DNA of 64,000 bases from positions 248,001 to 312,000 of the forward strand of contig NZ_LNSG01000005.1 in assembly GCF_001468395.1 (NCBI RefSeq), given 5' to 3'. A program made the translations under genes and the position numbers. The stretch is from Sphingopyxis sp. H073 (GTDB lineage: Bacteria > Pseudomonadota > Alphaproteobacteria > Sphingomonadales > Sphingomonadaceae). Numbering within the stretch: position 1 is the first letter of the stretch; each line of letters opens with the position of its first letter. Under the pieces are notes generated by a model. It saw only the letters and a program-made list of their open reading frames with translations. It had not been told where the DNA came from and did not search any database. This document shows, piece after piece, positions 7,066 to 50,197 of the stretch.

Positions 7066-9135
7066 TTACTGCTTCAAATAGCTTCCCAGCCAGTTGAACA
7101 CCGTCTGGTGCCACTGGACGCTGTTCGCGCCCTTCAGCACCCAGTGATTCTCGTCCGGAAAAACGAGAAGTTGCGACGGAATGTTCCGGCGCTGGAGCGC
7201 GGTGAAGGCGGCGAGACCCTGCGTATAGGGAATTCGGAAGTCCTTTTCGCTGGTGATGACCAGCATCGGGGTCTTCCACTTGGCGACATGATTGACCGGG
7301 TTCCATTTCTCATATTCCTCTGGAACCTCGAAATAGGGGCCGCCATGCTCCCATTCGTCGAACCACAGCTCCTCAGTTTCATAGGCCATCGCGCGCGCGT
7401 CGAAGACGCCGTCGTGCTGGACGAGACATTTGAAGCCGTCGGTCCACTGGCCGGCGATCCAGTTCATCATGTATCCGCCGTAGGAGGCGCCAAGCGCGCA
7501 GGCATTGGCTATGTCAAGCTGCGCATCCTGCTTGCCGGCCGCTGCCAAGCCCAGCTTCAGATCTTCGAGCGGCTTGCCGCCCCAATCCTTGTTGATGCTG
7601 TCGGTGAAGGCCTGGCCGTAACCGGTCGAACCGTGGAAATCGACGCTGACGACGCCATAGCCCTGCTGCGCGAACAGGCGCGGATTCCAGCGCGTCGACC
7701 AGCCGTTGCCGAAGCTGCCCTGCGGGCCGCCATGGACGATGAAGGCGACCGGCAGTTTGGCTGTGGCATTCGCGGGCTTCAGGATGATGCCCCAAACCTT
7801 GTCACCGTTGGCGCCGGCGAACTGCATGCGGTCGAATTTTACCGGGTCGAAATCGGCAAGCGTCGCGGCGTTCACCGCCGTGAGTTGCTTCACCTTGCCC
7901 TTGGCGTCGCGGACATAGAGGTCGGTCGGAAGCAGCGCGCTGTTGCGCGTATAGAGCAGCGCGCCGCCCGGCAGCACCGTGACATCGCCCACCGTGCCGT
8001 CGAATGCCTCGGCGGAGGCCTTGAGCTTCTCGACTTTGCCCGTCGCAGCGTCGACCTTGAACAGCGGATGGTCGAGCACATCCTGAGCGGTGACGAAAAG
8101 CGACTTGCCGTCCGCCGCCCAGCTTATCGAGTCGACCGAGCGGTCCCAAGCATCGGTCAGCTTCTTCGTCTCGCCGCTTTCGAGGTTGCGCAGCATCAGC
8201 ACCTGCCGGTCCGCTTCGTAGCCGGGACGCGCCATCGCGGCATAGGCCAGCCACTTTCCGTCGGGCGAGGGGGTGGGCAGCGTATCGGTCGCTTGATTGC
8301 TCTCGGTCAGGTTGACCGGCATCATCCGGCTGTCGACAAGCCAGCTGTAGATATCGAGATTGGTCGAGGTCGGCTCGTGGCGGTCGGCCTTGCGCAGCGT
8401 GAAGAAGACGGTGCGACTGTCTGCGCCCCACGCGAGTTCCTCACCGCCGCCGAACGGTTTCGACGGGCTGTCGCCGATCAGTCCGGCATCGACCGGGCGC
8501 GCGACGCTGGCCTTGCCGCCTTCGAGATTGAAGACGAACGGGCGGCTATAGGTGCCCGGGGTCTCCCATGCGTCCCAGTGGCGAACGAAGCCGGTGCCAT
8601 CCTTGTAGAGCCGGCCGCTGCCTGGGCCGACGAGCGCGCCCTTGTCTTTCGCATCGCAGCCGAAGTCGGTGCATTCCTTCGGAATGTCGCCCCATGCGAG
8701 CAGCCTCTTGCCGTCAGGAGAAATCTTGAAGCCGGAAACGTCGGCCTGGGTGTCGGTGACCTGCGTCGCGGTGGCGCCCGCAGCAATGTCGACGCGCCAG
8801 ATCTGGTCCTTGCCCGACGCGTTCGAGAGGAAATACAGGCTGCCGTCGGGCGCGAAGGCGGGCGCGGTTTCGTTCTTGCCCGGCATGTCGGCGACACGAA
8901 CGGGTTTTGCATCCTTCGCATTGCGGTCGATCAGCCAGAGCCCGGTCGAGCGCTGGTAGCTCTCCTTCTCGGTATCGGTCTGCTGGAAAACGACCCAGCG
9001 CCCGTCGGGGGATGCGGCCGGCGCGGCGACGCGCTTCATCGTCGCGAGGTCGACCTCGGTCATCGGGCGAGCAAGCGCGGGGGAGGAAAGGGCGGCGGTG
9101 AGCGCGATGGCGCTGGTGAGGAGCATGGTACGCAT
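7066..9135 (-). CDS. S9 family prolyl oligopeptidase-like peptidase (secreted)
   Basis: A 689-residue exported serine peptidase. It has a signal peptide (cleavage near PALARP) and an N-terminal beta-propeller of WD40/TolB-like repeats (several SPDGK and APDG turns). The C-terminal alpha/beta-hydrolase domain has nucleophile S551 in GASYGGYM, an Asp in SEKDFR and a His in DENHW. This is the S9C/dipeptidyl-aminopeptidase layout, cleaving short peptides in the periplasm. An alternative start lies three codons downstream (MLLTSA). It stands alone between two REP-like repeats. Confidence 0.88.
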   Translation of the reverse strand: MRTMLLTSAIALTAALSSPALARPMTEVDLATMKRVAAPAASPDGRWVVFQQTDTEKESYQRSTGLWLIDRNAKDAKPVRVADMPGKNETAPAFAPDGSLYFLSNASGKDQIWRVDIAAGATATQVTDTQADVSGFKISPDGKRLLAWGDIPKECTDFGCDAKDKGALVGPGSGRLYKDGTGFVRHWDAWETPGTYSRPFVFNLEGGKASVARPVDAGLIGDSPSKPFGGGEELAWGADSRTVFFTLRKADRHEPTSTNLDIYSWLVDSRMMPVNLTESNQATDTLPTPSPDGKWLAYAAMARPGYEADRQVLMLRNLESGETKKLTDAWDRSVDSISWAADGKSLFVTAQDVLDHPLFKVDAATGKVEKLKASAEAFDGTVGDVTVLPGGALLYTRNSALLPTDLYVRDAKGKVKQLTAVNAATLADFDPVKFDRMQFAGANGDKVWGIILKPANATAKLPVAFIVHGGPQGSFGNGWSTRWNPRLFAQQGYGVVSVDFHGSTGYGQAFTDSINKDWGGKPLEDLKLGLAAAGKQDAQLDIANACALGASYGGYMMNWIAGQWTDGFKCLVQHDGVFDARAMAYETEELWFDEWEHGGPYFEVPEEYEKWNPVNHVAKWKTPMLVITSEKDFRIPYTQGLAAFTALQRRNIPSQLLVFPDENHWVLKGANSVQWHQTVFNWLGSYLKQ

Positions 9136-35343: not shown

Positions 35344-35822
35344 TGGGCAAGCGCCAACCCGCCTTTGACGATCGCCAGCTGGCGTTCAACCTCGACGCGT
35401 TCAACGTGCCGATGCCGGAGCGCTTCGACGGGGCTCTCGCCCATCTGCCGCGCATGATCTCTTCGTCGGTGGCGCGGATTCTGCAAGAGGACGGCCGCTC
35501 GCGGCACGTCATGGCCGGCGAGCTGTCGCGACTGCTCGGCACCGAAGTCAGCAAGATGACGATCGACGGCTGGGCCAGCGAGTCCCGCGACCGATTCAAT
35601 ATCTCGGCCGCGCACTGGATCGCGCTGCTCGCCGCTACCGACCGCGTCGACGTGCTCGACGGCATCGTCCGCCCGGCGCTGGGCGTCGCGGTGTTCGAAG
35701 GCCCGGAGGTCGCCACGGCCGAGCTGGGACACATCGACCGCCAGATCGCCGCGCTGCGCGATCGCCGCAAGAAAATCGAACAACGGGCGGTGCCAATCCG
35801 CCGAGCCGAGGGATCACGATGA
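35343..35822 (+). CDS. Early protein of Mu-like phages, upstream of transposase
   Basis: A 159-residue helical protein. The blocks ARILQEDGRSRHVMAGELSRLLGTEVSKMTIDGW and HWIALLAATDRVDVLD resemble a DNA-binding-type protein that commonly precedes MuA in Mu-like phages of alphaproteobacteria. A C-terminal coiled coil (HIDRQIAALRDRRKKIEQR) follows. The name and role are not established. A GTG one codon earlier (35340) is an alternative start. It overlaps the transposase start by 4 bp. Confidence 0.65.
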   Translation: MGKRQPAFDDRQLAFNLDAFNVPMPERFDGALAHLPRMISSSVARILQEDGRSRHVMAGELSRLLGTEVSKMTIDGWASESRDRFNISAAHWIALLAATDRVDVLDGIVRPALGVAVFEGPEVATAELGHIDRQIAALRDRRKKIEQRAVPIRRAEGSR

Positions 35823-37762
35823 AGTTCCAAGGGGGGAAATACTGGTTCACCGCTGCCGAGCTCGCCGAGCTGAAGCTGCCGGGGCTCCCGTCGACGAAGC
35901 GCAAGGTGAACGAGCGCGCGTCGAAGGAATGCTGGGCGCTTCAGGTCGACGGCGACGGCATGCCGCTGGCGCGGACGCGCCAGGCGCGCGGTGGCGGACT
36001 GGAATATCATGTCTCGATCCTGCCCGCGGCGACGCAGGCGGCGCTGATGCGGCGCGGCATCTCGGCGGCCTGTGAGCCGGTCGAGGACGAGCGGCTGCGC
36101 CAGGGCACGATGTGGAGCTGGTACGAAGCGCAGTCCGACAAGGTGAAGGCCGAGGCCGAGCGCCGCAACGCAATCCTGACGCAGGTATTCGCGCTGATCG
36201 AGCAGGGCATTTCGACGTCGACCGCGGTGTCGGCGCTGTCGATCGGCGAGAAGGTCGGCATGTCGACGCTCTACAGCTGGATGGCGCTGGTCGACGGCGT
36301 CGCTGCGTCCGATCGCCTGCCGCACCTTGCGCCGCAGCGGAAGGGCGGCGGGCGCGAGGCCGAGTGTCACCCCGAGCTGATGCAAATTCTGGTCTCGGAC
36401 TATTTGCGGCCCGAGCAGCCGACATTCTCCTCCTGCTATTGGCGCACCAGCCGCATCGCCGAGGCGCGCGGCCTCTCACTGCCCGGTGAGAAGACCCTGA
36501 AGCGTCGTTTCGACCGGGAGATCGACAAGCGGCTCGTCACGGCAAAGCGCGGCGGCAAGGATGCGCTGCGGCAAATGCTGCCTCCGCAGCGCCGCTCGCG
36601 CGCGCACTTCCACGCGATGGAAGCGGTGAACATCGACGGCCACAAGCTCGACGTCTTCGTCCGCACGCCCAGTGGCAGGGTGATCCGCCCGATCATGGTC
36701 GCGATCCAAGACCTCTTCAGCGGCAAGATGCTGGCATGGCGCCTAGGCGAGAGCGAGAGCGCGCTGCTGACTCGTCTGGCCTTCGCCGACCTGTTCGCCA
36801 ATTACGGGATTCCCAAGGCCTGCACGCTCGACAACGGCCGCGCGTTCGCGTCGAAGGAAATCACCGGCGGCGCGAAGACCCGATATCGCTTCACGATCCG
36901 GGCCGACGATCCGACCGGCCTGCTGACTGCGCTGGGCATCAAGACCAACTGGGCACGCCCGCATCACGGCCAGGCGAAGCCGATCGAGCGCTTCTTCCGG
37001 GATGTCGCAGACGTGATCGCTCGCGACCCGCGGTGCGCCGGCGCCTACACCGGCAACCGGCCCGATGCGAAGCCCGAAAACTACGCCTCCAAAGCCGTCG
37101 AGTGGGATGATTTCGTGCGCATCGTCAACGCCGGCATGGTGGCGCTAAATGCCCGGCGCGGCCGTCGCAGCGAGACGGCGAACGGGCGCAGCTATGACGA
37201 GACCTTTGCCGCGAGCTACGCCACCGCGCCGATCGGCAAGGCAACCGAGGAGCAGCTGCGCCTCGCGCTGCTGACCGCCGACCGCGTCACCACCGACCGC
37301 AAGAGCGGCATGATCAAGCTGGCGCACAACCGATACTGGGCGCCCGAGCTGATGCAGATCGCGGGCCAGAAGGTCACGATCCGCTTCGACCCCGACCATC
37401 TGCACGGCGACATCCACGTCTATGACGCGGCGGGCCGCTTCCTGGTCACCGCGCAGCTGATCGAGGACAGCGGATTCGACAGCCTGGACGCGGCGCGCGC
37501 CCGCGCGAAGCTGGAGCGCGAGCATCGCCGCGCGGCCCGCGAGCTGGAAGAGCGCGAGCAGCTGCTCGCCGCCTCGGCGATCGCGTCGATGCTGCCCGAC
37601 GTCGGCGAGGACGATCTGCCCGAGCCGCAAGTCATTCGCCCGATCCGCGTCGCACATCGCAACGGCGCCGCCGCTGCTGCGGTCAAGGTCGAGCACCATG
37701 AGCCAGTCAGTTTCATGAACAAGTTCGGGGCGGCGGTGTCGCAGCTCCGGATTGTTGAGTGA
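35819..37762 (+). CDS. Mu-like transposase (MuA family)
   Basis: A 647-residue DDE recombinase that cuts phage ends and joins them to target DNA. The N-terminus is a Mu DNA-binding wing (FTAAELAELKLPGLPSTKRK). The catalytic core has D273 in NIDGHKLDVF, D338 in CTLDNGRAF and E390 in KPIERFF. The C-terminal Mu-type beta-barrel and a highly charged helix (RAKLEREHRRAARELEEREQ), which probably contacts the B and ClpX proteins, follow. Length and order match MuA. Its binding sites are probably the repeats at the left end. Confidence 0.93.
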   Translation: MKFQGGKYWFTAAELAELKLPGLPSTKRKVNERASKECWALQVDGDGMPLARTRQARGGGLEYHVSILPAATQAALMRRGISAACEPVEDERLRQGTMWSWYEAQSDKVKAEAERRNAILTQVFALIEQGISTSTAVSALSIGEKVGMSTLYSWMALVDGVAASDRLPHLAPQRKGGGREAECHPELMQILVSDYLRPEQPTFSSCYWRTSRIAEARGLSLPGEKTLKRRFDREIDKRLVTAKRGGKDALRQMLPPQRRSRAHFHAMEAVNIDGHKLDVFVRTPSGRVIRPIMVAIQDLFSGKMLAWRLGESESALLTRLAFADLFANYGIPKACTLDNGRAFASKEITGGAKTRYRFTIRADDPTGLLTALGIKTNWARPHHGQAKPIERFFRDVADVIARDPRCAGAYTGNRPDAKPENYASKAVEWDDFVRIVNAGMVALNARRGRRSETANGRSYDETFAASYATAPIGKATEEQLRLALLTADRVTTDRKSGMIKLAHNRYWAPELMQIAGQKVTIRFDPDHLHGDIHVYDAAGRFLVTAQLIEDSGFDSLDAARARAKLEREHRRAARELEEREQLLAASAIASMLPDVGEDDLPEPQVIRPIRVAHRNGAAAAAVKVEHHEPVSFMNKFGAAVSQLRIVE

Positions 37763-37831: not shown

Positions 37832-38791
37832 ATGAACAACCCCGAAAACCAGCCTATCGATATCGAAGACCAGCGCGCCTTCATCATCGATCACAAGGCT
37901 GCAACCGGCATGAGCTGGACGGAGATCGGCAAGCGCACCGGCATCGCGGCGGGCACGATCAGCCAGTTCGGCAGCGCCAAGGGTTATGCCGGCGACGAGA
38001 AGCGCCTTGCCGAACAGGTCTATCGATATCGGCAGCAGCTCGCCGCTCAGGCCGCGATCAAGGTCACCGCCCCCGAAATTCCGGGTTTCTTTCGCGGGCC
38101 GACCGCCCAGGACGTCGAGACCGCGCTTTCGTGGGCGCAGCGGGGCCGCATGGTCGTCATCGCGACCGGCGCCGGCATGGGCAAGACCAAGACGATCCAG
38201 AATTATCGGGATAGCGTGTCGAACGTGTGGGTCGTAACGATCGCGCCGAGCAGCGCGGGCGTGATGACGATGCAGCAGAAGACGCTCGCGGCGCTCGGCG
38301 ATCGGGAGGCCAACGGCCCGCCGAACAAGCTTACCGCGCTGATCATTGCAAAGATCAAGGACACCGGCGGCCTGCTCATCTTCGACGAGGCACAGCATCT
38401 GTCCGAAAAGGCGATCGAGGAAATCCGCGCCTGGCATGACGAAACGGGCGTCGGCATCGTCCTGTCGGGCAATATCAAGGTGCTGACCCGCCTCGAGGGC
38501 GGCAACCGCCGCGATGCCTTTGCGCAAATCTTCAGCCGCGTCGCGCACCGTATCGTGCGCGCCCAGCCGCTGCAGGGCGATGCCGACGCGCTTTGCGATG
38601 CATGGGGCGTTTTCGACGACGCGAGCATCCGCGCGATCCGTGAAATCTGCATGAAGCCGGGCGCGCTCCGCGGCGCGACCTTCACGCTCGAGCTGGCGCA
38701 CATGATCGCGGCCAGCGAGGGCGTGGCGGTCACCGCGGGCCATATCCGCGATTGCTGGGCGCAGCTTTCGACCCGGCAGGTGGCGGTATGA
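37832..38791 (+). CDS. MuB-like AAA+ ATPase, transposition target activator
   Basis: A 319-residue ATPase. The N-terminus has an HTH (ATGMSWTEIGKRTGIAAGTIS). Walker A is GAGMGKT (residues 113-119), Walker B LLIFDEAQHL, and sensor-like SGNIKV follows. MuB-type proteins bind DNA non-specifically, select target sites and stimulate the transposase. The position directly after the transposase and before small early genes is canonical. Confidence 0.9.
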   Translation: MNNPENQPIDIEDQRAFIIDHKAATGMSWTEIGKRTGIAAGTISQFGSAKGYAGDEKRLAEQVYRYRQQLAAQAAIKVTAPEIPGFFRGPTAQDVETALSWAQRGRMVVIATGAGMGKTKTIQNYRDSVSNVWVVTIAPSSAGVMTMQQKTLAALGDREANGPPNKLTALIIAKIKDTGGLLIFDEAQHLSEKAIEEIRAWHDETGVGIVLSGNIKVLTRLEGGNRRDAFAQIFSRVAHRIVRAQPLQGDADALCDAWGVFDDASIRAIREICMKPGALRGATFTLELAHMIAASEGVAVTAGHIRDCWAQLSTRQVAV

Positions 38792-41004: not shown

Positions 41005-41688
41005 ATGGGGAGCGAAACCAACCAATCCGATATCGCCGGAATCGGCCATAACCTGCCCGAGGAAATTCTCGTCCAGGCATGGTCGACGCGCTACGCTTCG
41101 GCCGTCGTCGAGCTGCTGAAGACCGAGGGCGGCTTCGTCGACGATCCCGCCGATCGTGGCGGCACCACCAAATATGGCTGGTCGCTGCGCACGCTGGTCA
41201 TCGAAGGCAAGGTCGACCTCGACGACGACGGCCGCGCCGACTTCGATCTCGACGGCGACGGCGATATCGACGGCTATGACGTTCGCAAGCTTACGCGCGG
41301 CGACGCCAAGTTCCTCTATCACCATTGTTTCTGGAAGCGGATGGGCTGCGACAATCTGCCGCGCCCGGTGGGCGAGATGATGTTCGACCAGGGCGTCAAT
41401 GCCGGCATCGGCAGCGCGCGCCGCCTTCTCCAGCTCGCGATCAATCGTTGCCTCGAGCGCGCGGCCTCGGCGCCGGCGAAGCTGAAGGTCGACGGCGCGA
41501 TCGGCAAGCAGACGCTCGACGCGATGAATTGGGTGCTGCGCTGGGGCGCGCTGGGCATGCCCGCGCTGGTCGACGCGTTCCGCGTCGAGGTGCGGCTCCG
41601 GTACCGCGCGATCGCCGAGCGCACTCCGTCGCAGAAGAAGTTTCTGAAGGGCTGGCTGGCGCGCGCCGACCGGTTGGGGAGGATTTGA
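41005..41688 (+). CDS. GH108-type endolysin with calcium-loop-like insertion
   Basis: A 227-residue peptidoglycan hydrolase. Catalytic E41 lies in KTEGGFVDDPADRGGTTKYG, the glycoside hydrolase 108 signature. The C-terminal part (from about residue 125) matches the peptidoglycan-binding_3 domain (KVDGAIGKQTLDAMN). Residues 71-93 insert a run rich in alternating Asp and Gly (DLDDDGRAD, DLDGDGDIDGYDV) resembling EF-hand/dockerin calcium loops inside the catalytic domain. There is no signal peptide, so it needs the holin. It is the first gene after the predicted Mor-dependent promoter. Confidence 0.87.
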   Translation: MGSETNQSDIAGIGHNLPEEILVQAWSTRYASAVVELLKTEGGFVDDPADRGGTTKYGWSLRTLVIEGKVDLDDDGRADFDLDGDGDIDGYDVRKLTRGDAKFLYHHCFWKRMGCDNLPRPVGEMMFDQGVNAGIGSARRLLQLAINRCLERAASAPAKLKVDGAIGKQTLDAMNWVLRWGALGMPALVDAFRVEVRLRYRAIAERTPSQKKFLKGWLARADRLGRI

Positions 41689-42230: not shown

Positions 42231-42453
42231 CCCCGGCGCCGCGCCCGATCCGGTGATCGAGCGCAAGATCGTCGTCAAGCCCGTCTGCCCACCCGAGCTG
42301 CTCCAGGACGTGCCCGTCGCGCCAGCGATGCCCGCAGAGGCACTGGTCGAGGCGAGCGACGAAACACTGCGCTGGCTAGGCGCCATATTCTCTCACGCCG
42401 CGCTCCTCGAGGAGCGGCTGCGCGACGCAAGGACCGCGTGCCCCGATGACTAA
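42139..42453 (+). CDS. Outer-membrane spanin lipoprotein (Rz1-like)
   Basis: A 104-residue predicted lipoprotein: MPLSKARLRLLVGLASVATLAAC, with the Cys at residue 23, then a Pro-rich stretch (GSPEKPDPGAAPDP) as in Rz1 proteins. It starts inside the i-spanin gene in a different frame and ends overlapping the next gene. Either ATG 42130 or 42139 could start it; 42139 has GGATGAGG upstream. It should pair with the upstream spanin. Confidence 0.68.
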   Translation: MPLSKARLRLLVGLASVATLAACAGSPEKPDPGAAPDPVIERKIVVKPVCPPELLQDVPVAPAMPAEALVEASDETLRWLGAIFSHAALLEERLRDARTACPDD

Positions 42454-43237
42454 CCCAACAACGATCGAAACACGCCCGATCGAACAGCTCCCTGCTGCGA
42501 CGGCAGTGTCCCCGGCGGCGTTGACGGCCATTCAGGAACCTGGTGGACCGGTCCAGAAGGTTTCCATCGCGCAGCTGTTGGGTCGCCTGATCTCAACCAA
42601 CGCGGCGAAGGAAACGCGCGCCAACCTGCTCGCCGACCTTGCGCATGCAGCGAACAGCATCGCGCTCGTTTATGCCGATGCCGATCCGGCGTGGAACGGC
42701 TGGTATCGCAAGCAGGGCAATTCGGGGGTCGGCACCTGGCTCCAGTTCGAAAAGCTGTCGTCCTTTGCCGAGGCCGAGGTCCAGCAATGGGTCGAGTATG
42801 CCCAGTCGGGGGCGCAGGCCGCCGCGGCGACCGCGAACTTTTATGATGGTGGCTTGCTCGCTGCGCATGCGGCGACAGTCGCCGGCGATTATTTTGCCTG
42901 CGAGTTCCCGGCGGGCATCATCAGCTATCGCCGCCGTACCGCCAACGGTTCGGCCCAGATCGGCACGGCGCTGACACCCGCGGCGCTGGCGCGAGAGATG
43001 GGGGTCGCGCGGGCGCGCCTGCTGCTCACCTCCGACCAGCCCGCCGATGGCGTGCCTGGCGACGCATGGCTGTCGCCGACCTGCATCTTTTACGAACGCC
43101 GTCCCCGCGCGCAGATCATGGCCGGCGGCGTCATGGTCGTCGCGGGCGGCATCGCCCCGGTATCCGAATGGGCGCGCGCCGAGAGCCAGCCCATCGCCAC
43201 CATCCATGAAGCCCTGGTCAACGAAGGAATCCTGTAG
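42446..43237 (+). CDS. Tail fibre/receptor-binding-like protein
   Basis: A 263-residue protein. The N-terminus (EQLPAATAVSPAALTAIQE, then QKVSIAQLLGRL) is the adaptor sequence often found at the base of phage tailspikes and fibres. An Ala/Gln-rich helical segment follows and then a compact C-terminal part rich in Gly and Ala. Enzymatic motifs are absent. It is adjacent to the beta-helix tailspike (stop and GTG start overlap), so the two may form one receptor-binding device. Confidence 0.55.
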   Translation: MTNPTTIETRPIEQLPAATAVSPAALTAIQEPGGPVQKVSIAQLLGRLISTNAAKETRANLLADLAHAANSIALVYADADPAWNGWYRKQGNSGVGTWLQFEKLSSFAEAEVQQWVEYAQSGAQAAAATANFYDGGLLAAHAATVAGDYFACEFPAGIISYRRRTANGSAQIGTALTPAALAREMGVARARLLLTSDQPADGVPGDAWLSPTCIFYERRPRAQIMAGGVMVVAGGIAPVSEWARAESQPIATIHEALVNEGIL

Positions 43238-44796
43238 TGTACGACGCCAATCCCACGATCTTCGTTCCTGTTCCCGGCGTCGACAACGGCCCCGCGATCC
43301 GCGCCCTTCTGGCGAGCGGCAAGCGCTGGATCCAGATCAACGGGTCGGCGCTGCGCCTCGATACGCCGGTGCTGCTCGAGGACGACGGCGTGCCTGCCGA
43401 TTTTGTCCATATCCAGCCGCATCCATCGATCGCGACCGTCGTCGTCGATCCCAGTGGCATCGGCCGCGACGCAGGCGATCCGACGAACCCGAGCTACGCT
43501 GCGTTCGAATATGGCGGGAAGCGCACGACCGCAGGCTATCTTTCGGCACTGGTCGCTGCTGGGTCGCGCGTGCTGCCGGTCAATAATGGCGCGCTCTATG
43601 CGCCCGGCGACTGGATCAACGTGTCGAATGCGTCGACCAATCCCGGCGCGACGCTGCTGCCGCTCGACGGACCCGGCGCGAAATACCGCGTCGAAGCGGT
43701 GGTCGGCAACAACCTGACCATCGACAGGCCGACCGAGCGTGCGCACCCGAACAACGCCACCGCCAGCAAGTGCAAACCGCTGGTGGGCGCGATCATCGAA
43801 GGGCTAACCTTCACCGGCGACTGCACGGTCGGTATCCATATTCATGACGACATAAACGGCACCTACCGCGGCATCCGCACTGTCGGCTGGACGGGCCGAG
43901 TGGGCGTGCTCATTGACAATTGGAATATCGGCTCTCTGATCGACGATTGCTTCATCACCGGAACCACGCCGGGCACCGGCGCTCTGGAAAGCGCGTGGGG
44001 CGTTGCGATCGAAGGCGGATCGGGGTCGCGCTACAGCCAATGCGGCGGGACGATGTGCGGTACGGGGATCACGATCAATTATGGCTACGATGTCCGCGGG
44101 GTCGATACGCTTGCCTTCAGCAACACGGTCAATGTCGCGCAACTGACCGAGTGCGTCGATTGCTTCAATATCCGCCCCCGCACCGCGAACGCATCGGCCC
44201 TCGATGTCTCGGAGTCGGGGAGCAACGTCAATTGCGCGGTCGTCGATCGTCGCCAGGCCACCGATGTCGAGATGGGAACGGGCGACAATACGAAAGCCGA
44301 ATGGCGATCGCTGACGATGGGCGGGCAGTTCGCCGCCACCGAATCGATCCTGGCCTGCGATGAAAACAACGGCCTGCGGCAGGTGAATCCCGCCACGGCG
44401 CTGCTGGCTCTAAAAGTCGACGGGTCGATGGAGCGGGAGAATATCTGGGTCGACAGCCCCCAGAACTATGGCGGCAACGTGCAGCTGTCTAATAATCTTC
44501 AGCACTGGGCCATCGGGATGCTGTCGTCGGACCCGTTCCGCGACATGGTCATCTACAATGTAACTGCCGGGCAGGTCGATCTTCGGGTCGCCTATGATAC
44601 AGGGATGATCACGACGCGTGGCGACGTCAACATCGGCGCGGGCAAGGCGTTGAAGATCAACAATGTCACGATGCTAACCGGACGCGGCGCCGCGATCCCC
44701 AATGCGGCGGGCGGCGCAACGGTCGATGTCGAGGCCCGCGCTGCGCTAAACGCGCTGCTGGCGCAGCTTCGTCTCGGGACGTTGCCGACGACATGA
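43237..44796 (+). CDS. Right-handed beta-helix tailspike-like protein
   Basis: A 519-residue protein with repeating beta-strand coils: GAIIEGLTFTGDCTVGIHIHDD, RGIRTVGWTGRVGVLIDN, SLIDDCFITG, VAIEGGSGSRYSQCGG, plus a C-terminal GKALKINNVTMLTG. This pattern is typical of parallel beta-helix tailspikes that bind or cut surface polysaccharide. The start is GTG overlapping the previous TAG. It sits far from the tail genes, before the terminase. Given the exopolysaccharide module next to the prophage, host polysaccharide as substrate is plausible but unproven. Confidence 0.62.
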   Translation: MYDANPTIFVPVPGVDNGPAIRALLASGKRWIQINGSALRLDTPVLLEDDGVPADFVHIQPHPSIATVVVDPSGIGRDAGDPTNPSYAAFEYGGKRTTAGYLSALVAAGSRVLPVNNGALYAPGDWINVSNASTNPGATLLPLDGPGAKYRVEAVVGNNLTIDRPTERAHPNNATASKCKPLVGAIIEGLTFTGDCTVGIHIHDDINGTYRGIRTVGWTGRVGVLIDNWNIGSLIDDCFITGTTPGTGALESAWGVAIEGGSGSRYSQCGGTMCGTGITINYGYDVRGVDTLAFSNTVNVAQLTECVDCFNIRPRTANASALDVSESGSNVNCAVVDRRQATDVEMGTGDNTKAEWRSLTMGGQFAATESILACDENNGLRQVNPATALLALKVDGSMERENIWVDSPQNYGGNVQLSNNLQHWAIGMLSSDPFRDMVIYNVTAGQVDLRVAYDTGMITTRGDVNIGAGKALKINNVTMLTGRGAAIPNAAGGATVDVEARAALNALLAQLRLGTLPTT

Positions 44797-45233
44797 CGAT
44801 GACGCCATCCGCCTTCTATGCGGCCTGGACGCCGACGCTGCTGTTTGCCGGCGCCGTGAACAAGGCTTCGCCGGCCGACGTGATGATCGTCGCCGGCGGC
44901 TTTGAATGGCCGGTCGTTACGCTGGCGCTTGCCGCGATCGGCGTGCTCGCCGCGCGGCCGCTCGCGCCGAAGCGCAACCCGCCGATGGGCCTGGCGAAGA
45001 ATATCCTGGTCACCGTGATCATGCTCGTCGCTGCGCTGCTCTGGGTACTCGACAGCCGGCCTGGCCTGCTCTTCGCGTTCGTCGTTTCGATCGGCCTCGG
45101 TTTCTCCGGCTACACGGTGATCGAGCTGCTGGGCGAAGAGATCGCCGCCTACATCAGACGCGCGATCGGCGCGCTCCCGCTTCCCGGCCTGAAGGCCGGC
45201 CAGACAACCAAGCCCGATCAGGAGCCTTCATGA
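44793..45233 (+). CDS. Membrane protein, holin-like
   Basis: A 146-residue protein with three probable transmembrane helices (FEWPVVTLALAAIGVLAA; ILVTVIMLVAALLWVL; LLFAFVVSIGLGFSGYTVIEL) and a charged, Pro-rich C-terminus. Its size, topology and place in the lysis block suggest a holin, but no family signature was recognised. It is coupled to both neighbours by 4-bp overlaps. Confidence 0.5.
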   Translation: MTMTPSAFYAAWTPTLLFAGAVNKASPADVMIVAGGFEWPVVTLALAAIGVLAARPLAPKRNPPMGLAKNILVTVIMLVAALLWVLDSRPGLLFAFVVSIGLGFSGYTVIELLGEEIAAYIRRAIGALPLPGLKAGQTTKPDQEPS

Positions 45234-45544
45234 GCGACGTTTTGCAGCTGGCGATTATCCTCTTCATCATTCTCGGCATCGGTGTCGCCGTGTGGCGGGG
45301 CGGCCAGGCCAATCCCGAGGGAACTGGCCGCCTCGGCCGCCGCCTCGGCAAGGTAGAGCAGGCCTTGTCGGGGAAAGCGACGACCGAGGACGTCGGCGAG
45401 GTTCAGAACGAGATCGCCTCGCTCAACAACAAAATTGCAAGGCTGGAAGCCGAACAGGCCGCCGATCGACGAGTCAACCAGCTGACCTATGAAGCGGTGC
45501 GGCGGCTCGAGGACTATTTCCTGAAAAAGGGCACGGGGGTCTGA
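45230..45544 (+). CDS. DUF2730-like membrane/coiled-coil protein
   Basis: A 104-residue protein with one N-terminal transmembrane helix (LQLAIILFIILGIGVAVW) and a long coiled coil (VQNEIASLNNKIARLEAEQAAD, then RVNQLTYEAVRRLEDYF). This matches the DUF2730 type found before the terminase genes in Mu-like phages; function unknown. ATGA overlap with the upstream gene. Confidence 0.6.
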   Translation: MSDVLQLAIILFIILGIGVAVWRGGQANPEGTGRLGRRLGKVEQALSGKATTEDVGEVQNEIASLNNKIARLEAEQAADRRVNQLTYEAVRRLEDYFLKKGTGV

Positions 45545-45546
45545 TC

Positions 45547-46089
45547 GTGGATGTATTCTCCATCATGGCGCAGCTGCTGGTTGGCTGGCTAATCGCGGAC
45601 TTCCTTTCCGGGATCGTACATTGGGTCGAGGATCGCCTGCTCTGGGTCGACATGCCGCTGATCAGCAAGGCGATCGTCGAGCCGAACCGCCTACATCATG
45701 TCGATCCGCAAGCCTTTCTCGCGAGCCCGCTGCTCTCGCGCAACTCGACGACATGGGCTTCCGCGATCGCGATCGCGCTGGCTTGGCTGATGATCGCCGG
45801 CTTCAGCTGGATCTGGCTCGGCGCGATCGCCGGCGGGCTCGCCGTGACCGAGGTTCATGCATACTCGCACCGCCAGACCGCGCGTTCCGGATGGTACCGC
45901 GCGCTTCAGGAGATCGGCATAGTCCAGTCGGCGCCGCACCATTGGGGCCATCATGCCGGCAGGATGGACACCCGCTATTGCATCCTGACGGGCTGGCTTA
46001 ATCCGCTGCTCGATCGGCTGCGCCTGTGGGCGCGCCTGGAGAGCGGCATCGAGGTAATCGGCTTGAAACCGAACCGGGGGACCGCGTGA
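45547..46089 (+). CDS. CarF/TMEM189 (PEDS1)-like lipid desaturase
   Basis: A 180-residue membrane enzyme with four or so hydrophobic segments and the histidine pattern of the CarF/TMEM189 lipid desaturase family: H25 (GIVHW), H50-H51 (LHHVDP), H104 and H108 (EVHAYSHRQ), H131-H132 and H135-H136 (PHHWGHH), followed by the family tail RYCILTGWLNPLLD. Known members are plasmanylethanolamine desaturases that make the vinyl-ether bond of plasmalogens; eight His ligate a di-iron centre. GTG start at 45547. Activity in this phage is inferred, not shown. It lies at the end of the lysis/accessory block. Confidence 0.75.
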   Translation: MDVFSIMAQLLVGWLIADFLSGIVHWVEDRLLWVDMPLISKAIVEPNRLHHVDPQAFLASPLLSRNSTTWASAIAIALAWLMIAGFSWIWLGAIAGGLAVTEVHAYSHRQTARSGWYRALQEIGIVQSAPHHWGHHAGRMDTRYCILTGWLNPLLDRLRLWARLESGIEVIGLKPNRGTA

Positions 46090-46385
46090 GCTACACTGAC
46101 TATCATTTCCAGCATGTCCGGCTGACGATCCTTCGGCTCCTGGCCGAGGTGCCGACATATTCTGCCAACGACAGCGTTCTCAACCAGGCGGTGAACGCGA
46201 TGGGCCTGAGCTGCACCCGCGACCAGCTCCGCACGAACCTCACCTGGCTCCAAGAGCAGCGGCTTGTTTCGCTCATTCTTCCCACGCCCAGTCTGATTGT
46301 TGCCGAGCTGACCGAAGCCGGCGCCGACGTCGCCGCGGGACGTTCGATCGTTTCTGGCGTCCAGCGCCCTTCGCCGGGCGCCTGA
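46086..46385 (+). CDS. VpaChn25_0724-type phage protein (winged helix-like)
   Basis: A 99-residue protein. The blocks VRLTILRLLAEVPTYSANDSVLNQAV, CTRDQLRTNLTWLQEQRLV and the tail AAGRSIVSGVQRPSPGA are characteristic of this Mu-phage family, located just before the small terminase. It probably has a winged-helix fold; the role is unknown. The GTG start overlaps the desaturase stop by 4 bp. Confidence 0.72.
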   Translation: MSYTDYHFQHVRLTILRLLAEVPTYSANDSVLNQAVNAMGLSCTRDQLRTNLTWLQEQRLVSLILPTPSLIVAELTEAGADVAAGRSIVSGVQRPSPGA

Positions 46386-46386
46386 C

Positions 46387-46965
46387 ATGGCGCGCCCTGC
46401 TCGCCCCAAGGCCGCGCGCCACCGCCCGTCGTCGATCGACAAGCTCGACAAGGAGGTGCGCGAGCTGATCGGCCAGCTCCGGATGGATCATGGCTGGACG
46501 ATCGACGAGATCCGCACCCGGCTGCTCGACATGGGGCAAACCGTCAGCCGCTCGGCGCTCGGGCGGCATGTCCGCACGCTTGAGGATATGGCGGCCGAGC
46601 TCCGCGAATCGCAGATGATGGCGACCGCACTCGCGCGAGAGACCGGCAACGCCGACCAGTCGCAGATGCTCGACCTCAACAGCCAGCTGCTCCAGGCGAA
46701 CATGTTCAAGCTGATGCTCGCGACCAAGGACGGCGAGGGCATCCAGCTCGGCGCGAAGGATGCAAAGGATTTCGCCGACGCGCTGCGCTCGATCGCGCTG
46801 ACCCGCAAGACCGAGCTCGACGTGATCGAGAAGGCGGAGAAGCGCGCGGCGGAGAAGGCGACGAAGGAGGCGGCCGAGAAGGCGACCCGCGCGGCTCGCG
46901 CGAAGGGACTGTCGAAAGAGACCGTCGAATCCATCCGCTTCGCGGTGCTGGGCAGCGACACATGA
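46387..46965 (+). CDS. Terminase small subunit-like (Mu gp27, DUF3486)
   Basis: A 192-residue helical protein with the DUF3486 start ARPARPKAARHRPSSIDKLD, an HTH-like WTIDEIRTRLLDMGQTVSRSALGRHV, and a charged C-terminal coiled coil (EKAEKRAAEKATKEAAEKA). It recognises phage DNA for packaging together with the large subunit, which it overlaps by 4 bp. Confidence 0.85.
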   Translation: MARPARPKAARHRPSSIDKLDKEVRELIGQLRMDHGWTIDEIRTRLLDMGQTVSRSALGRHVRTLEDMAAELRESQMMATALARETGNADQSQMLDLNSQLLQANMFKLMLATKDGEGIQLGAKDAKDFADALRSIALTRKTELDVIEKAEKRAAEKATKEAAEKATRAARAKGLSKETVESIRFAVLGSDT

Positions 46966-48518
46966 GGCAGTCGCCCGAGGAGGATTTTAAGCGCGCCCAG
47001 GACAGTCGCGCTGAGTGGATCAAGCTGCGCGAAATCCAGGGCGATCGTGCGGCGGCCGAGTCCGCGATCTTTCGCCTGCCAAAGGGCGACCTCCTCCTCG
47101 GGTACCAGCAGCGGCCCGTCGACTCCCTCTTCAACGGCACCGCGCTGCTCGTCATCGAAAAGTCGCGCCGTATCGGTCTCACCTGGGGGATGGCGGCGTT
47201 CGCGGCGCTGAAGGCGGCAGCGGCGCCGGAGGCAGGCGGCCAGAACATCTGGTACATGGGTTACGACAAGGACATGACGCTGGAGTTCATCCAGGTTTGC
47301 GCCATGTGGGCTCGCGCCTTCGGCCTCGTCGCCAGCGAGATCGAGGAAGAGGAGGTGCTAGAGGCCGATGAGAAGGGCGTGAAGGCCTTCTCGATCCGCT
47401 TTGCCTCGGGCTTCCGTATCACCGCGCTTCCCTCGGTGCCGCGCGCCCTGCGCGGCAAGCAGGGCATCGTCATCATCGACGAGGCGGCGTTCCACAAGAA
47501 TGTCGGCGAAGTGATCAAGGCCGCGATGGCGCTGCTGATCTGGGGCGGCCAGGTCGTCGTCATCTCGACCCACGATGGCGTGTCGAACCCGTTCAACCTG
47601 CTCATCCAGGACATAAAGACCGGCAACCGCGCAGGCGAAACGATGAAGATCACGTTCCGCGACGCGCTCGACGCCGGACTCTATGAGCGGGTGTCGATGG
47701 TTTCAAAGACCAAGGGCGTCGATCTTCCCCCGAAGGAAGAATGGGTCGCCGGGATCTACGCCGCCTATGGCGAGGATGCGGACGAGGAGCTCGATTGCAA
47801 TCCGAAGATCGGCTCGGGCTCGCTGCTCAACATCGCCGATATCGCCGCGTGCGAGCATGCCGATTGCGGCCTGCCCGAGCTGTACCAGGGCGGCATCTGC
47901 TATGTCGGCCGCGACGTCGCGCGTCGGCGCGACGGGCAGGTCCAATATTGCATGGAGCTGCTCGGCGACGTCCTCTGGCAGCGCGATACCTATGAAGAAA
48001 TTGGCCAGTCGTTCGCGCACCAGGACGCCTTCTTCAACCAGCTCTTCAAGACCCGCCGCATCGGCGCGGCCTGGATCGACCAGACCGGCATGGGCGAGAA
48101 GGTCGTCGAAGATCTTCAGCGCCTTCACGGTACCAGCCGCGTTCATGGCGAGCTGCTGACTGGGCCGTCGCGCATCGACCTTGCGCTCAGCCTGCACAAG
48201 CGCATCCAGGAGCACCGCATCCGGATTCGGTTCGATCCCTTCACCCGCGCCGACCTGATGGCAATCAAGAAGATCGGTTCCGAGCAGTCGGGCGGCATCC
48301 GGATCGTCAATGCCGACGACGAGGTCCACGCCGATCGCTTCTGGGCCTATGCGCTCGCCAGCCGTGCGGCCGACATGCCGCCGGCCTTTTATGCATATCG
48401 GGGCGTCAATCGCCGCCCCGATCGAGCCGGATCGGAACGCGGCCCCAGCGGCAGGCGCCGCGACGATCGCCCCGATCGGCACGGCCGCGGTAGCCGTTTC
48501 GATAGAGGAGCCTTTTAA
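46962..48518 (+). CDS. Terminase large subunit (Mu gp28-like)
   Basis: A 518-residue packaging motor. The ATPase has a Walker-A-like EKSRRIGLTWGMA, Walker B VIIDEAAF and a coupling SHDG region. The RNase H-like nuclease domain has GRDVARRRDG, AWIDQTGMGEKV and HADRFWAYALA. It cuts and pumps DNA for headful packaging, including flanking host DNA in Mu-like phages. The C-terminus is Arg/Pro-rich. It ends on the first base of the portal start. Confidence 0.9.
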   Translation: MRQSPEEDFKRAQDSRAEWIKLREIQGDRAAAESAIFRLPKGDLLLGYQQRPVDSLFNGTALLVIEKSRRIGLTWGMAAFAALKAAAAPEAGGQNIWYMGYDKDMTLEFIQVCAMWARAFGLVASEIEEEEVLEADEKGVKAFSIRFASGFRITALPSVPRALRGKQGIVIIDEAAFHKNVGEVIKAAMALLIWGGQVVVISTHDGVSNPFNLLIQDIKTGNRAGETMKITFRDALDAGLYERVSMVSKTKGVDLPPKEEWVAGIYAAYGEDADEELDCNPKIGSGSLLNIADIAACEHADCGLPELYQGGICYVGRDVARRRDGQVQYCMELLGDVLWQRDTYEEIGQSFAHQDAFFNQLFKTRRIGAAWIDQTGMGEKVVEDLQRLHGTSRVHGELLTGPSRIDLALSLHKRIQEHRIRIRFDPFTRADLMAIKKIGSEQSGGIRIVNADDEVHADRFWAYALASRAADMPPAFYAYRGVNRRPDRAGSERGPSGRRRDDRPDRHGRGSRFDRGAF

Positions 48519-50197
48519 TGCGTGAAGTCGTCCCGCCTGCACCGAAGGCGCCGCCCCTCGTCTGGTCGAACGGCCAGCTGATGCGAACCGAGACGCTGGC
48601 GCGCGAGGTTGCGGCGCCGCGGATGATGTCGGTGCGCTCGATCGTCTCGGGCCACCCGGCGAAGGGTCTGACCCCGGCGCGCCTGGCGAGCCTTCTCCTC
48701 CAGGCCGAGCAGGGCGACATGATCGCCTATCTCGAGCTCGCCGAGGAGATGGAGGAGAAAGACCCCCATTATCTGTCGGTGCTCGGTACCCGGAAGCGCG
48801 CGGTCGCGCGCATGCCGATCGAAGTCGAGGAGGCCGACGACAGCGAGGAGGCGAAGGCTGACGCACAGCTCGTCCGCGACTGGCTGGATCGGGACATGCT
48901 CCAGGCCGAGATCTTCGACATCATGGACGCGGTCGGCAAGGGCTTCAGCGTGACCGAGATGATCTGGGATCTTCAGCCCGGCCTTTGGCAGCCCGAGGAT
49001 CTGAAATGGCGCGACCCGCGCTGGTTTGAATTCGACCGGGTCAACGGCGAAACCTTGCGGCTGCGCACCGCCGGCGAGCCCGAGGCGCTGCCCGCCGGCA
49101 AGTTCATCGTCCACTTCCACAAGGCGAAGTCGGGCCTCCCCATTCGTGGCGGTCTTGCGCGTGTCGTCGCCTGGGGATGGATGTTCAAGAATTTCTCGAT
49201 CAAGGACTGGGTCAGCTTCCTCGAGACATACGGCATGCCGCTGCGCGTCGGTCGCTATGACAATGGCGAGACCGAGGACAATATCGAGATCCTCGCGCGC
49301 GCCGTCGCCGATCTCGGCGCGGACGCCGCGGCCGTCTTCCCGAAGACGATGGAGGTCGAGTTCATCGACGGCAAGGGCGGCAGTGCGCCCAGCGACCTCT
49401 GGCGATCGATGGCCGAATATATCGACGACCAGGTGTCGAAGGTCGTGCTCGGCCAGACCAACACCACCGACGCAAAGGCCGGCGGGCTCGGTTCGGGGCA
49501 AGCCGAGGTGCATGACGGCGTGCGCGAGGATATCGCCGATGCCGACGCCGTGATGGTCGCCGCGACCCTCAACCGCGATTTCGTCAAGCCGCTGATCATC
49601 TTCAACCGCGGGCCGCGCCGGAAATATCCCCGGCTGAAAATCGGCAAGCCCGACGAGGTCGACGTCAAGGCGATGACCGAAGCGGCGGCGGCGCTGGTCC
49701 CGCTGGGTGTCAAGGTCGGCGCCGACCAGATCCGCGAGCGTGCCGGATTGCCCGCCCCTGAAGCGGGCGAAGACGTGCTGACGGCCGCCGCATCGCCGAC
49801 CCCGGAAAATTTGCCCGTAGGAGCCCCTCCAGGCACCGCACCCGCCCAGCCCCAGCGCTCGGGTACCCGACTCGGCCTCTTAGACCCTCTTAAACGGCCT
49901 GACGGGCAAATCGGTACCGCCAGCGCACCCCCCAATGATCCATCCAGCCGCGATGCGATCGACGAGGCCGCCGATTCCTTCCTCGACGACTGGACCGCGC
50001 TGGTCGATCCCGTTCTGTCGCCGGTCGAGCAACTGATCGCGTCGGCCTCTTCGCTCGAGCAGGTCCGCGACGGGCTGACCGGGCTTATCGAACGGATGGA
50101 CGCCGGCGAGCTGACCGGGATGCTCGCCCTCGCAGGCTTCGCCTCGCGTCTCGCCGGCGATGCCGCGCAGCAGGGTGACGAGCGGGAGGCGAGCTGA
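48518..50197 (+). CDS. Portal protein (Mu gp29-like, DUF935)
   Basis: A 559-residue protein with the DUF935 blocks MIAYLELAEEMEEKDPHYLSVLGTRKRAV, GKGFSVTEMIW, FIVHFHKAKSGLP, YGMPLRVGRYD and LGQTNTTDAKAGGLGSGQAEVH. It forms the dodecameric DNA channel of the head. The last 130 residues contain a Pro/Ala-rich linker (about residues 425-460) before a helical end. It overlaps the next gene by one base. Confidence 0.9.
   Translation: MREVVPPAPKAPPLVWSNGQLMRTETLAREVAAPRMMSVRSIVSGHPAKGLTPARLASLLLQAEQGDMIAYLELAEEMEEKDPHYLSVLGTRKRAVARMPIEVEEADDSEEAKADAQLVRDWLDRDMLQAEIFDIMDAVGKGFSVTEMIWDLQPGLWQPEDLKWRDPRWFEFDRVNGETLRLRTAGEPEALPAGKFIVHFHKAKSGLPIRGGLARVVAWGWMFKNFSIKDWVSFLETYGMPLRVGRYDNGETEDNIEILARAVADLGADAAAVFPKTMEVEFIDGKGGSAPSDLWRSMAEYIDDQVSKVVLGQTNTTDAKAGGLGSGQAEVHDGVREDIADADAVMVAATLNRDFVKPLIIFNRGPRRKYPRLKIGKPDEVDVKAMTEAAAALVPLGVKVGADQIRERAGLPAPEAGEDVLTAAASPTPENLPVGAPPGTAPAQPQRSGTRLGLLDPLKRPDGQIGTASAPPNDPSSRDAIDEAADSFLDDWTALVDPVLSPVEQLIASASSLEQVRDGLTGLIERMDAGELTGMLALAGFASRLAGDAAQQGDEREAS

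Follow-up and report, generated by a model that had tools for sequence, protein, structure and literature searches.

The stretch of DNA analysed here, referred to as the window, is 64,000 nucleotides long and comes from Sphingopyxis sp. H073. It includes a Mu-like prophage, with MuA-type and MuB-type proteins encoded at 35819-37762 and 37832-38791. The features relevant to the analysis are:

35819..37762, + strand, MuA-type transposase (phrog_310, E 6.6e-149)
37832..38791, + strand, MuB-type DNA transposition protein (phrog_296, E 3.5e-55)
41005..41688, + strand, endolysin, GH108 (PF05838, 72.4 bits; phrog_315 endolysin)
44793..45233, + strand, ORF for a membrane protein two genes upstream of the desaturase-like gene, likened to a holin only for its position and kept in related Mu-like phages
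45230..45544, + strand, Rz-like/coiled-coil membrane protein, directly upstream of the desaturase-like gene (phrog_736, E 6e-6; the Rz-like spanin family phrog_1152 at only E 0.006)
45547..46089, + strand, phage-borne PF10520 lipid desaturase-like membrane protein (GTG start, 180 aa; PF10520, 125.1 bits; AlphaFold2 pLDDT 94.3)
46086..46385, + strand, phrog_436 protein, directly downstream of the desaturase-like gene (E 7.6e-29)
46387..46965, + strand, small terminase (TerS), Mu gp27 type (PF11985, 100.4 bits)
46962..48518, + strand, large terminase (TerL; phrog_2, E 3.5e-31)
48518..50197, + strand, Mu-type portal (PF06074, 359.8 bits)

Past the Mu portal are genes for the Mu F protein and then the head protease, major head protein and tail sheath. 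The desaturase-like gene, hereafter the desaturase gene, starts 2 nt past the Rz-like gene and overlaps the phrog_436 gene by 4 nt. The membrane protein at 44793-45233 has no profile match in Pfam or PHROG, and profile scans of ten window proteins revealed no recognisable redox-partner gene.

The product of the ORF at 45547-46089 matches the PF10520 (Lipid_desat) profile with E 4.1e-36 (cut-off 26.4 bits), and residues 14-175 align with profile positions 1-172 of 175. The only other Pfam match is to PF04116 (FA_hydroxylase) and is sub-threshold (19.1 bits, cut-off 31), and no PHROG family was matched at E 0.01. A preliminary description of this DNA had proposed the ORF and its family, the Mu-like nature of the phage, and neighbours that were holin-like/coiled-coil membrane proteins on one side and terminase genes on the other. 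All of these were recovered, and phrog_436 and the portal complete the downstream side. In the whole host genome this gene is the sole PF10520 match, and 80 genomes of the genus contain one further match (G035).

Further upstream, at 42446-44796, the window has two adjoining ORFs (263 and 519 aa) where two related loci, L005 and L028 (loci are given L numbers and genomes G numbers), carry a single ORF (838-861 aa) with a match to the first, 263-aa, window ORF. Neither Pfam nor PHROG gave a match for the 519-aa protein. Is this a swapped or split tail-fibre-like module?

Mouse PEDS1 is reported to require eight histidines, H96, H121, H122, H187, H191, H215, H218 and H219, together with D100 (PMC8960569). 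All eight histidines and the Asp equivalent (D29) are in place in the window protein, at the codons listed here with their conservation in phage-type rows of the alignment:

45619..45633, + strand, codons for H25...D29 (mouse PEDS1 H96 and D100); H25 in 47/47 rows, D29 in 43/47
45694..45699, + strand, codons for H50-H51 (PEDS1 H121-H122); 47/47 rows
45856..45870, + strand, codons for H104...H108 (PEDS1 H187 and H191); 47/47 rows
45940..45954, + strand, codons for H132..H135-H136 (PEDS1 H215, H218 and H219); H132 and H136 in 47/47 rows, H135 in 46/47

The 47 rows include near-copies, and L003 stands for the window. Rows that were the window again (L006, L007), copies of kept rows (L009, L028, L055) or fragments (L056, L063) were dropped, and L086, which is below the cut-off and has an internal stop, gave no row. 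Four near-identical rows (L040, L042-L044) have Glu in place of D29, and H135 is Leu in L041 alone. When 54 diverse homologues were aligned, the only invariant columns were D18, G22 and the eight histidines. Identity to the window protein is about 38-50 % in most sphingomonad phage rows, yet the predicted metal-ligand histidines and their acidic partner are kept, and from the alignment the active-site residues of the phage enzyme look intact. The residues listed in the preliminary description (H25, H50-H51, H104, H108, H131-H132 and H135-H136) and the TGWLNPLLD tail are all present. That list lacked D29, which corresponds to the essential D100 of PEDS1, and it included H131 of the window protein, a residue outside the essential eight (His in 26 of the 47 rows). 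The homologue in L041 (416-958) is the sole one of the 47 with an altered predicted metal-ligand residue, and to judge from that substitution it is possibly inactive.

An AlphaFold2 model built from 52 rows has a mean pLDDT of 94.3 and a pTM of 0.90, with helices of at least 20 residues at 3-30, 62-84 and 88-108. A Foldseek search of the PDB gave no match at 0.001. The yeast sphingolipid alpha-hydroxylase Scs7p was on top (prob 0.99, E 0.089), and with VIA-align it superposed on the model with a Z of 8.3 (rmsd 3.7, 149 residues; next unrelated row 3.9), where Z below about 13 may reflect a common helical-bundle arrangement. In any case, a fold that the model shares with Scs7p does not show function. 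Among predicted viral structures, two matched at 0.001: an unnamed protein and a lipid desaturase-domain protein of a giant virus. A sequence search of the PDB with the single protein gave no relative; a profile search hit only a chain with a run of His at its end (E 0.026), which was put down to chance and rejected.

Homologues were sought in several collections. A tblastn search (E 0.01) of 50,697 phage records gave two matches. One is in Erythrobacter phage vB_EliS-L02 (43 % identity), where the gene is annotated as hypothetical and the portal gene is the next annotated gene downstream; this phage is described as lytic, and the main text of its description does not use the word desaturase (PMC9127768). 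The other is in an uncultured 595 kb phage (L002, 33 % identity). With an alignment as query, 39 loci were found in IMG/VR, including L003, which is probably the window's own prophage. The same kind of query found 18 loci in GTDB genomes, including L064 from Sphingopyxis sp. GW247-27LB, and a single-sequence query of these genomes gave no locus. There was no match in the plasmid collection. The pattern scans are biased to relatives of the seven rows of alignment A1, and the viral contigs lack a host label. The GTDB loci comprise eight of phage type in Sphingomonadales (L064-L071), two in Bacteroidota, one in Caulobacterales, two in Planctomycetota and five of a longer host type. Related phages thus carry the same gene, as the preliminary description had suggested could be looked for, and the phage context is both real and wider than could be seen from the window.

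Among 397 Sphingomonadaceae genomes, 20 have a PF10520 gene, 3 of phage type and 17 of host type. The longer host-type subfamily forms its own clade of 22 rows (these 17 and 5 more) with support of 100/100. An origin as recent cargo from the host chromosome was considered and rejected, as 17 of the 20 positives fall in this separate clade of longer proteins. All 22 host-type rows (L011-L027 and L077-L081) have Phe at the position of mouse PEDS1 F118 and Arg at that of H131. In 385 Alphaproteobacteria genomes there were six PF10520 matches, five over the cut-off with the window's included, and the other four of these look chromosomal by eye. At L111 (7141-7914) and L112 (5797-6570), both from one alphaproteobacterial genus, a lysozyme-like ORF lies two genes from a chromosomal-looking PF10520 gene.

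When the other homologues were added to the tree, the phage rows were not one clade: L002 fell outside and L076 inside. L076 (7992-8507, Caulobacterales) adjoins a gene that by eye is glycerol-3-phosphate dehydrogenase-like, and is perhaps a domesticated phage gene. The Bacteroidota relatives, L072 (7956-8519) and L073 (6837-7397), lie within mobile elements that also encode a tyrosine integrase along with a DUF5906 or VapE-type protein, and in L072 a weakly fn3-like small protein is encoded two genes further on. The L002 homologue (7983-8441) is the sole row of the 47 with both the Phe of F118 and the PEDS1-specific His, H131 in mouse, which makes it a candidate CarF-type enzyme in a huge phage. 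The Planctomycetota proteins, L074 (7995-8534) and L075 (7959-8516), may on their residues be genuine CarF-type enzymes.

Relatives of the desaturase gene occupy some 15 kinds of slot, the majority of which can be recognised as lying among late genes. Slots were named from surveys of the neighbours, with PHROG names for 20 proteins that are mostly cluster representatives, and slots K, K2, L2 and M have neighbours with no name. Genes in the relatives were called with a codon-score caller trained on window genes, which fails on the low-GC L002, L072 and L073. The slots and the loci in them include:

Between the Rz-like and phrog_436 genes (slot A): the window, L004 and L008; also L065, where it lies between the Rz-like gene and TerS
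Between TerL and portal: L035
After TerS: L036, L061 and L057
Between phrog_436 and TerS: L010, L059 and L060
Between head-tail connector genes and tail sheath: L041, L050, L051, L054 and L069-L071
After a holin, endolysin or amidase gene and a gene that is Rz-like by eye, ahead of the tail terminator (slot G): L032-L034, L037-L039, L045, L066 and L068
Between amidase and a weakly Rz-like gene (slot H): L030 and L031
Ahead of a portal gene of a different type: L001, L040 and L047
Between baseplate genes: L048 and L049
Further slots: including L062, on a 415 kb contig, where the neighbours have no assigned name

In L037, L039 and L045 of slot G, further ORFs interrupt this order. The genes directly before the desaturase gene in this slot (clusters c8 and c28) have no PHROG match, and c8 is Rz-like by eye.

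Across 38 loci chosen as non-duplicate, the upstream gene was co-directional with the desaturase gene in every case, 32 within 10 nt, and the downstream gene was co-directional in 35 of 37, 29 within 10 nt. L002 is not in this set; its desaturase gene is on the opposite strand to its larger neighbours, so the late-operon rule is not extended to it. On a tree of 39 phage rows, drawn without L002, the distribution of the 15 slot labels takes 16 changes, against a minimum of 14. Slot labels are thus largely clade-specific, and moves have not been frequent. Slots F (3 changes), C, J and G (2 each) account for three or four slots entered more than once; starred branches make at least two obligatory for each of F, C and J.

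Comparisons of individual phages also bear on mobility. Terminases of L061 are 73-74 % identical to those of the window, its desaturase is only 42 % identical and is in another slot. A related Mu-type portal (1e-30) was found in 9 of 298 sphingomonad genomes, three of which carry the desaturase gene (G000, G143 and G239) in three different slots. The other six are not among the 20 PF10520 positives, a sample to which they presumably belong, and at least five of the nine related Mu-type prophages are without the gene. In L096 the slot used in the window is empty: the Rz-like gene overlaps phrog_436, and its terminases share 68-71 % identity with those of the window. In both L096 and L097 the Rz-like gene, phrog_436 and TerS adjoin, and in L098 phrog_436 and TerS adjoin and are preceded by an ORF with no match. 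L100 has no desaturase gene, and L099 is too short to judge. The desaturase gene is a mobile, moron-like accessory gene of late operons.

Two loci deserve separate mention. In L004/L005, the Rz-like, desaturase, phrog_436 and TerS genes are 93-100 % identical to window 45230-46965, and TerL and portal are 76-78 % identical; from these identities, the segment appears to be a recently exchanged block that carries the desaturase. In L101, a 90-aa ORF (4113-4385) sits where L103, similar in gene order, has the desaturase.

We consider it likely that the gene encodes a late-expressed di-iron lipid desaturase or hydroxylase that is accessory and mobile among the late-gene slots of Sphingomonadales phages. 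The product would be a compact inner-membrane enzyme of the PF10520 superfamily with a predicted di-iron centre, translated together with the phage late genes. Using O2 and electrons that host redox partners would supply, it would desaturate (or hydroxylate) a lipid of the host membrane as infection nears its end, the substrate probably being an acyl phospholipid or sphingolipid rather than plasmanyl-PE. The envelope would thereby be changed before virion release, and the benefit may lie in release or in the exclusion of competing phages. The accessory gene itself would move between late-gene slots of different Sphingomonadales phages.

The PF10520 enzyme is encoded among the late genes of phages of one bacterial order that include Mu-like, other tailed and lytic ones, which points to a need that they share as infection ends, and its presence at many late-gene spots suggests that a late change to host membrane lipids pays off for phages. 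The question raised is which lipid change helps a phage to leave, or to guard, a host with an outer membrane built of glycosphingolipid.

Sphingolipids are a sensible candidate substrate, given that the host has a serine palmitoyltransferase (SPT; 812 bits, cut-off 670, best PDB relative SPT). The enzyme would then act on ceramide or glycosphingolipid as a desaturase or alpha-hydroxylase, a reading that we regard as unlikely. In its favour, Scs7p, a sphingolipid alpha-hydroxylase, is the only solved fold that stood out, and SPT was found in seven of the eight sphingomonadal genomes carrying the gene; the eighth, the MAG of L066, has only a 56-residue fragment. Glycosphingolipids are reported to replace LPS in sphingomonads, and Caulobacter sphingolipids to protect against phage (PMC11087976). 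However, the fold match is weak and Scs7p may be merely the nearest solved relative. As sphingolipids are general in sphingomonads, the link to host sphingolipids is not independent of taxonomy. An association with sphingolipid synthesis outside the Sphingomonadales was sought in five genomes with a relative (two Bacteroidota, two Planctomycetota and one Caulobacterales) and none was found, no SPT being over the cut-off with two models that were insensitive in controls: NF047603 was over its cut-off in 0 of 14 control genomes, including Caulobacter vibrioides, and NF047600 in 1 of 14. Phosphatidylglycerol, the FAD4 substrate, is also a candidate. The fuller proposal, that a mobile phage enzyme desaturates or hydroxylates the host's own LPS-replacing sphingolipids late in infection, is put forward tentatively, as an improbable reading. 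If true, it would parallel in bacteriophages the way in which Emiliania huxleyi virus takes over sphingolipids, and would aid virion release or block competing phages.

The position in the window invites a role in the lysis cassette, with the enzyme weakening the membrane for holin or spanin action. The lysis-block placing in the preliminary description holds in the window, where slot A has a weak Rz-like match, and lysis genes are also close by in slot G (holin and endolysin or amidase clusters), in slot H (preceded by an amidase and followed by a weak Rz-like match) and in L029, where an Rz-like gene follows directly and a phage lysozyme gene is upstream. It is not a conserved placing, however. 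Among the 15 or so kinds of slot, B, C, F, I and J are between packaging, head, portal or baseplate genes, and we consider a dedicated lysis function unlikely. The gene might instead serve lysogenic conversion or superinfection exclusion by altering the lysogen's envelope; like a moron it is accessory and mobile, and it is present in prophages of several genera. We judge this improbable, as the gene is found among late genes, its junctions mostly overlapping or abutting, and also occurs in the phage described as lytic (PMC9127768). Exclusion may still act during late infection.

The preliminary description had also read the protein as a CarF/PEDS1 enzyme, which would turn host ether phospholipids into plasmalogens. 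Similarity to PF10520 and to the NCBIfam CarF profile (NF045946, E 1.4e-23) agrees with this, as do the eight essential histidines, the Asp, and the 25 residues from H25 to H50, as from H96 to H121 in mouse. However, the score against NF045946 is 83.6 bits, and the cut-off of this equivalog is 500. By itself the cut-off is a weak argument, because L074, of which part of a predicted 218-aa protein was scanned, keeps both PEDS1 marks and also falls below it (141 bits). The PEDS1-specific His (mouse H131, CarF H113), reported to be kept in PEDS1 and not in FAD4 (PMC8960569), is S60 in the window protein and is also missing from the other 45 sphingomonad-type rows, leaving L002 as the one row of 47 that has it. 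Alphaproteobacterial and plant homologues without this His are reported to have failed to replace CarF (PMC9131029). At the position of mouse F118, where the F118A change is reported to leave 6 % activity (PMC8960569), the window protein has N47, and the 47 rows have Asn (44), Gln (2) or Phe (1, L002), so that the chemistry or substrate may differ from that of PEDS1. L074 and L075 have both residues and serve as an inner control. CarF/PEDS1 has four transmembrane helices including an N-terminal one, and this helix is predicted to be missing from the phage protein, as the CarF profile match begins at position 57 of 269. The three host FAD-oxidase_C proteins are GlcD-like, none passes a curated cut-off, and among them there was no sign of an AGPS-type ether-lipid route in this non-exhaustive comparison. 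With S60 and N47 in place of the PEDS1 residues and the first transmembrane helix missing, the plasmalogen reading is unsupported and very improbable, and by its residues the window protein is not a CarF/PEDS1 in the strict sense.

Pairwise dN/dS values (Nei-Gojobori) for the desaturase gene were 0.18 and 0.35 for the window with L004 and L028; 0.036, 0.074 and 0.17 for L059-L060, L010-L059 and L046-L010; 0.37, 0.23 and 0.37 for L050-L054, L051-L054 and L038-L034; and 0.067, 0.13 and 0.19 for L030-L031, L039-L045 and L001-L040. Pairs with dS over 1 are unreliable, and these include the window with L065 (0.28), L029 (0.42) and L035 (0.44). On these values, the gene is under purifying selection. 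A decaying passenger without enzymatic function, which the patchy distribution and the loss of H135 in L041 might suggest, is very improbable in view of the conserved metal-ligand residues and dN/dS well below 1.

Phage lipid desaturases are already known, from cyanophages and cold-water viromes. The cyanophage desaturases were reportedly described by Roitman in 2018. The literature searches, one of which was swamped by common phage words, found no description of the PF10520 class in phages, and no phage sphingolipid enzyme was among the literature matches listed. The Arctic viral desaturase genes (vFAD) have been linked by their authors to stearoyl-CoA desaturase (PMC7300359). Like these and the cyanophage genes, the window gene is phage-encoded and is predicted to act in host-lipid desaturation, but the vFAD are of the SCD type, whereas the window protein matches PF10520 and, below the cut-off, PF04116 only.

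Within PF10520, the phage protein shares the domain and essential residues of CarF/PEDS1 (TMEM189) and differs from it at S60 and N47 and in the first 56 profile positions. FAD4, the plant chloroplast PG delta-3-trans desaturase, belongs to the same family and also lacks the PEDS1-specific His (PMC8960569). The two differ at F118, which is reported to be among the residues conserved in PEDS1 and FAD4 and is Asn in the phage protein, a comparison made by description only. The predicted fold superposes weakly on Scs7p, a sphingolipid fatty-acid alpha-hydroxylase of the PF04116 type, but identity is 11 % and the PF04116 match is below the cut-off. The closest predicted viral structure is that of the lipid desaturase-domain protein of Harvfovirus (A0A3G5A308; TM 0.71, E 3.8e-6), with 22 % identity to the phage protein. 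Emiliania huxleyi virus is reported to alter host sphingolipid metabolism by its own enzymes (PMC5371807). There a pathway is carried by a giant algal virus, whereas here a single PF10520 gene, with sphingolipid as a candidate substrate, is carried by phages of bacteria.
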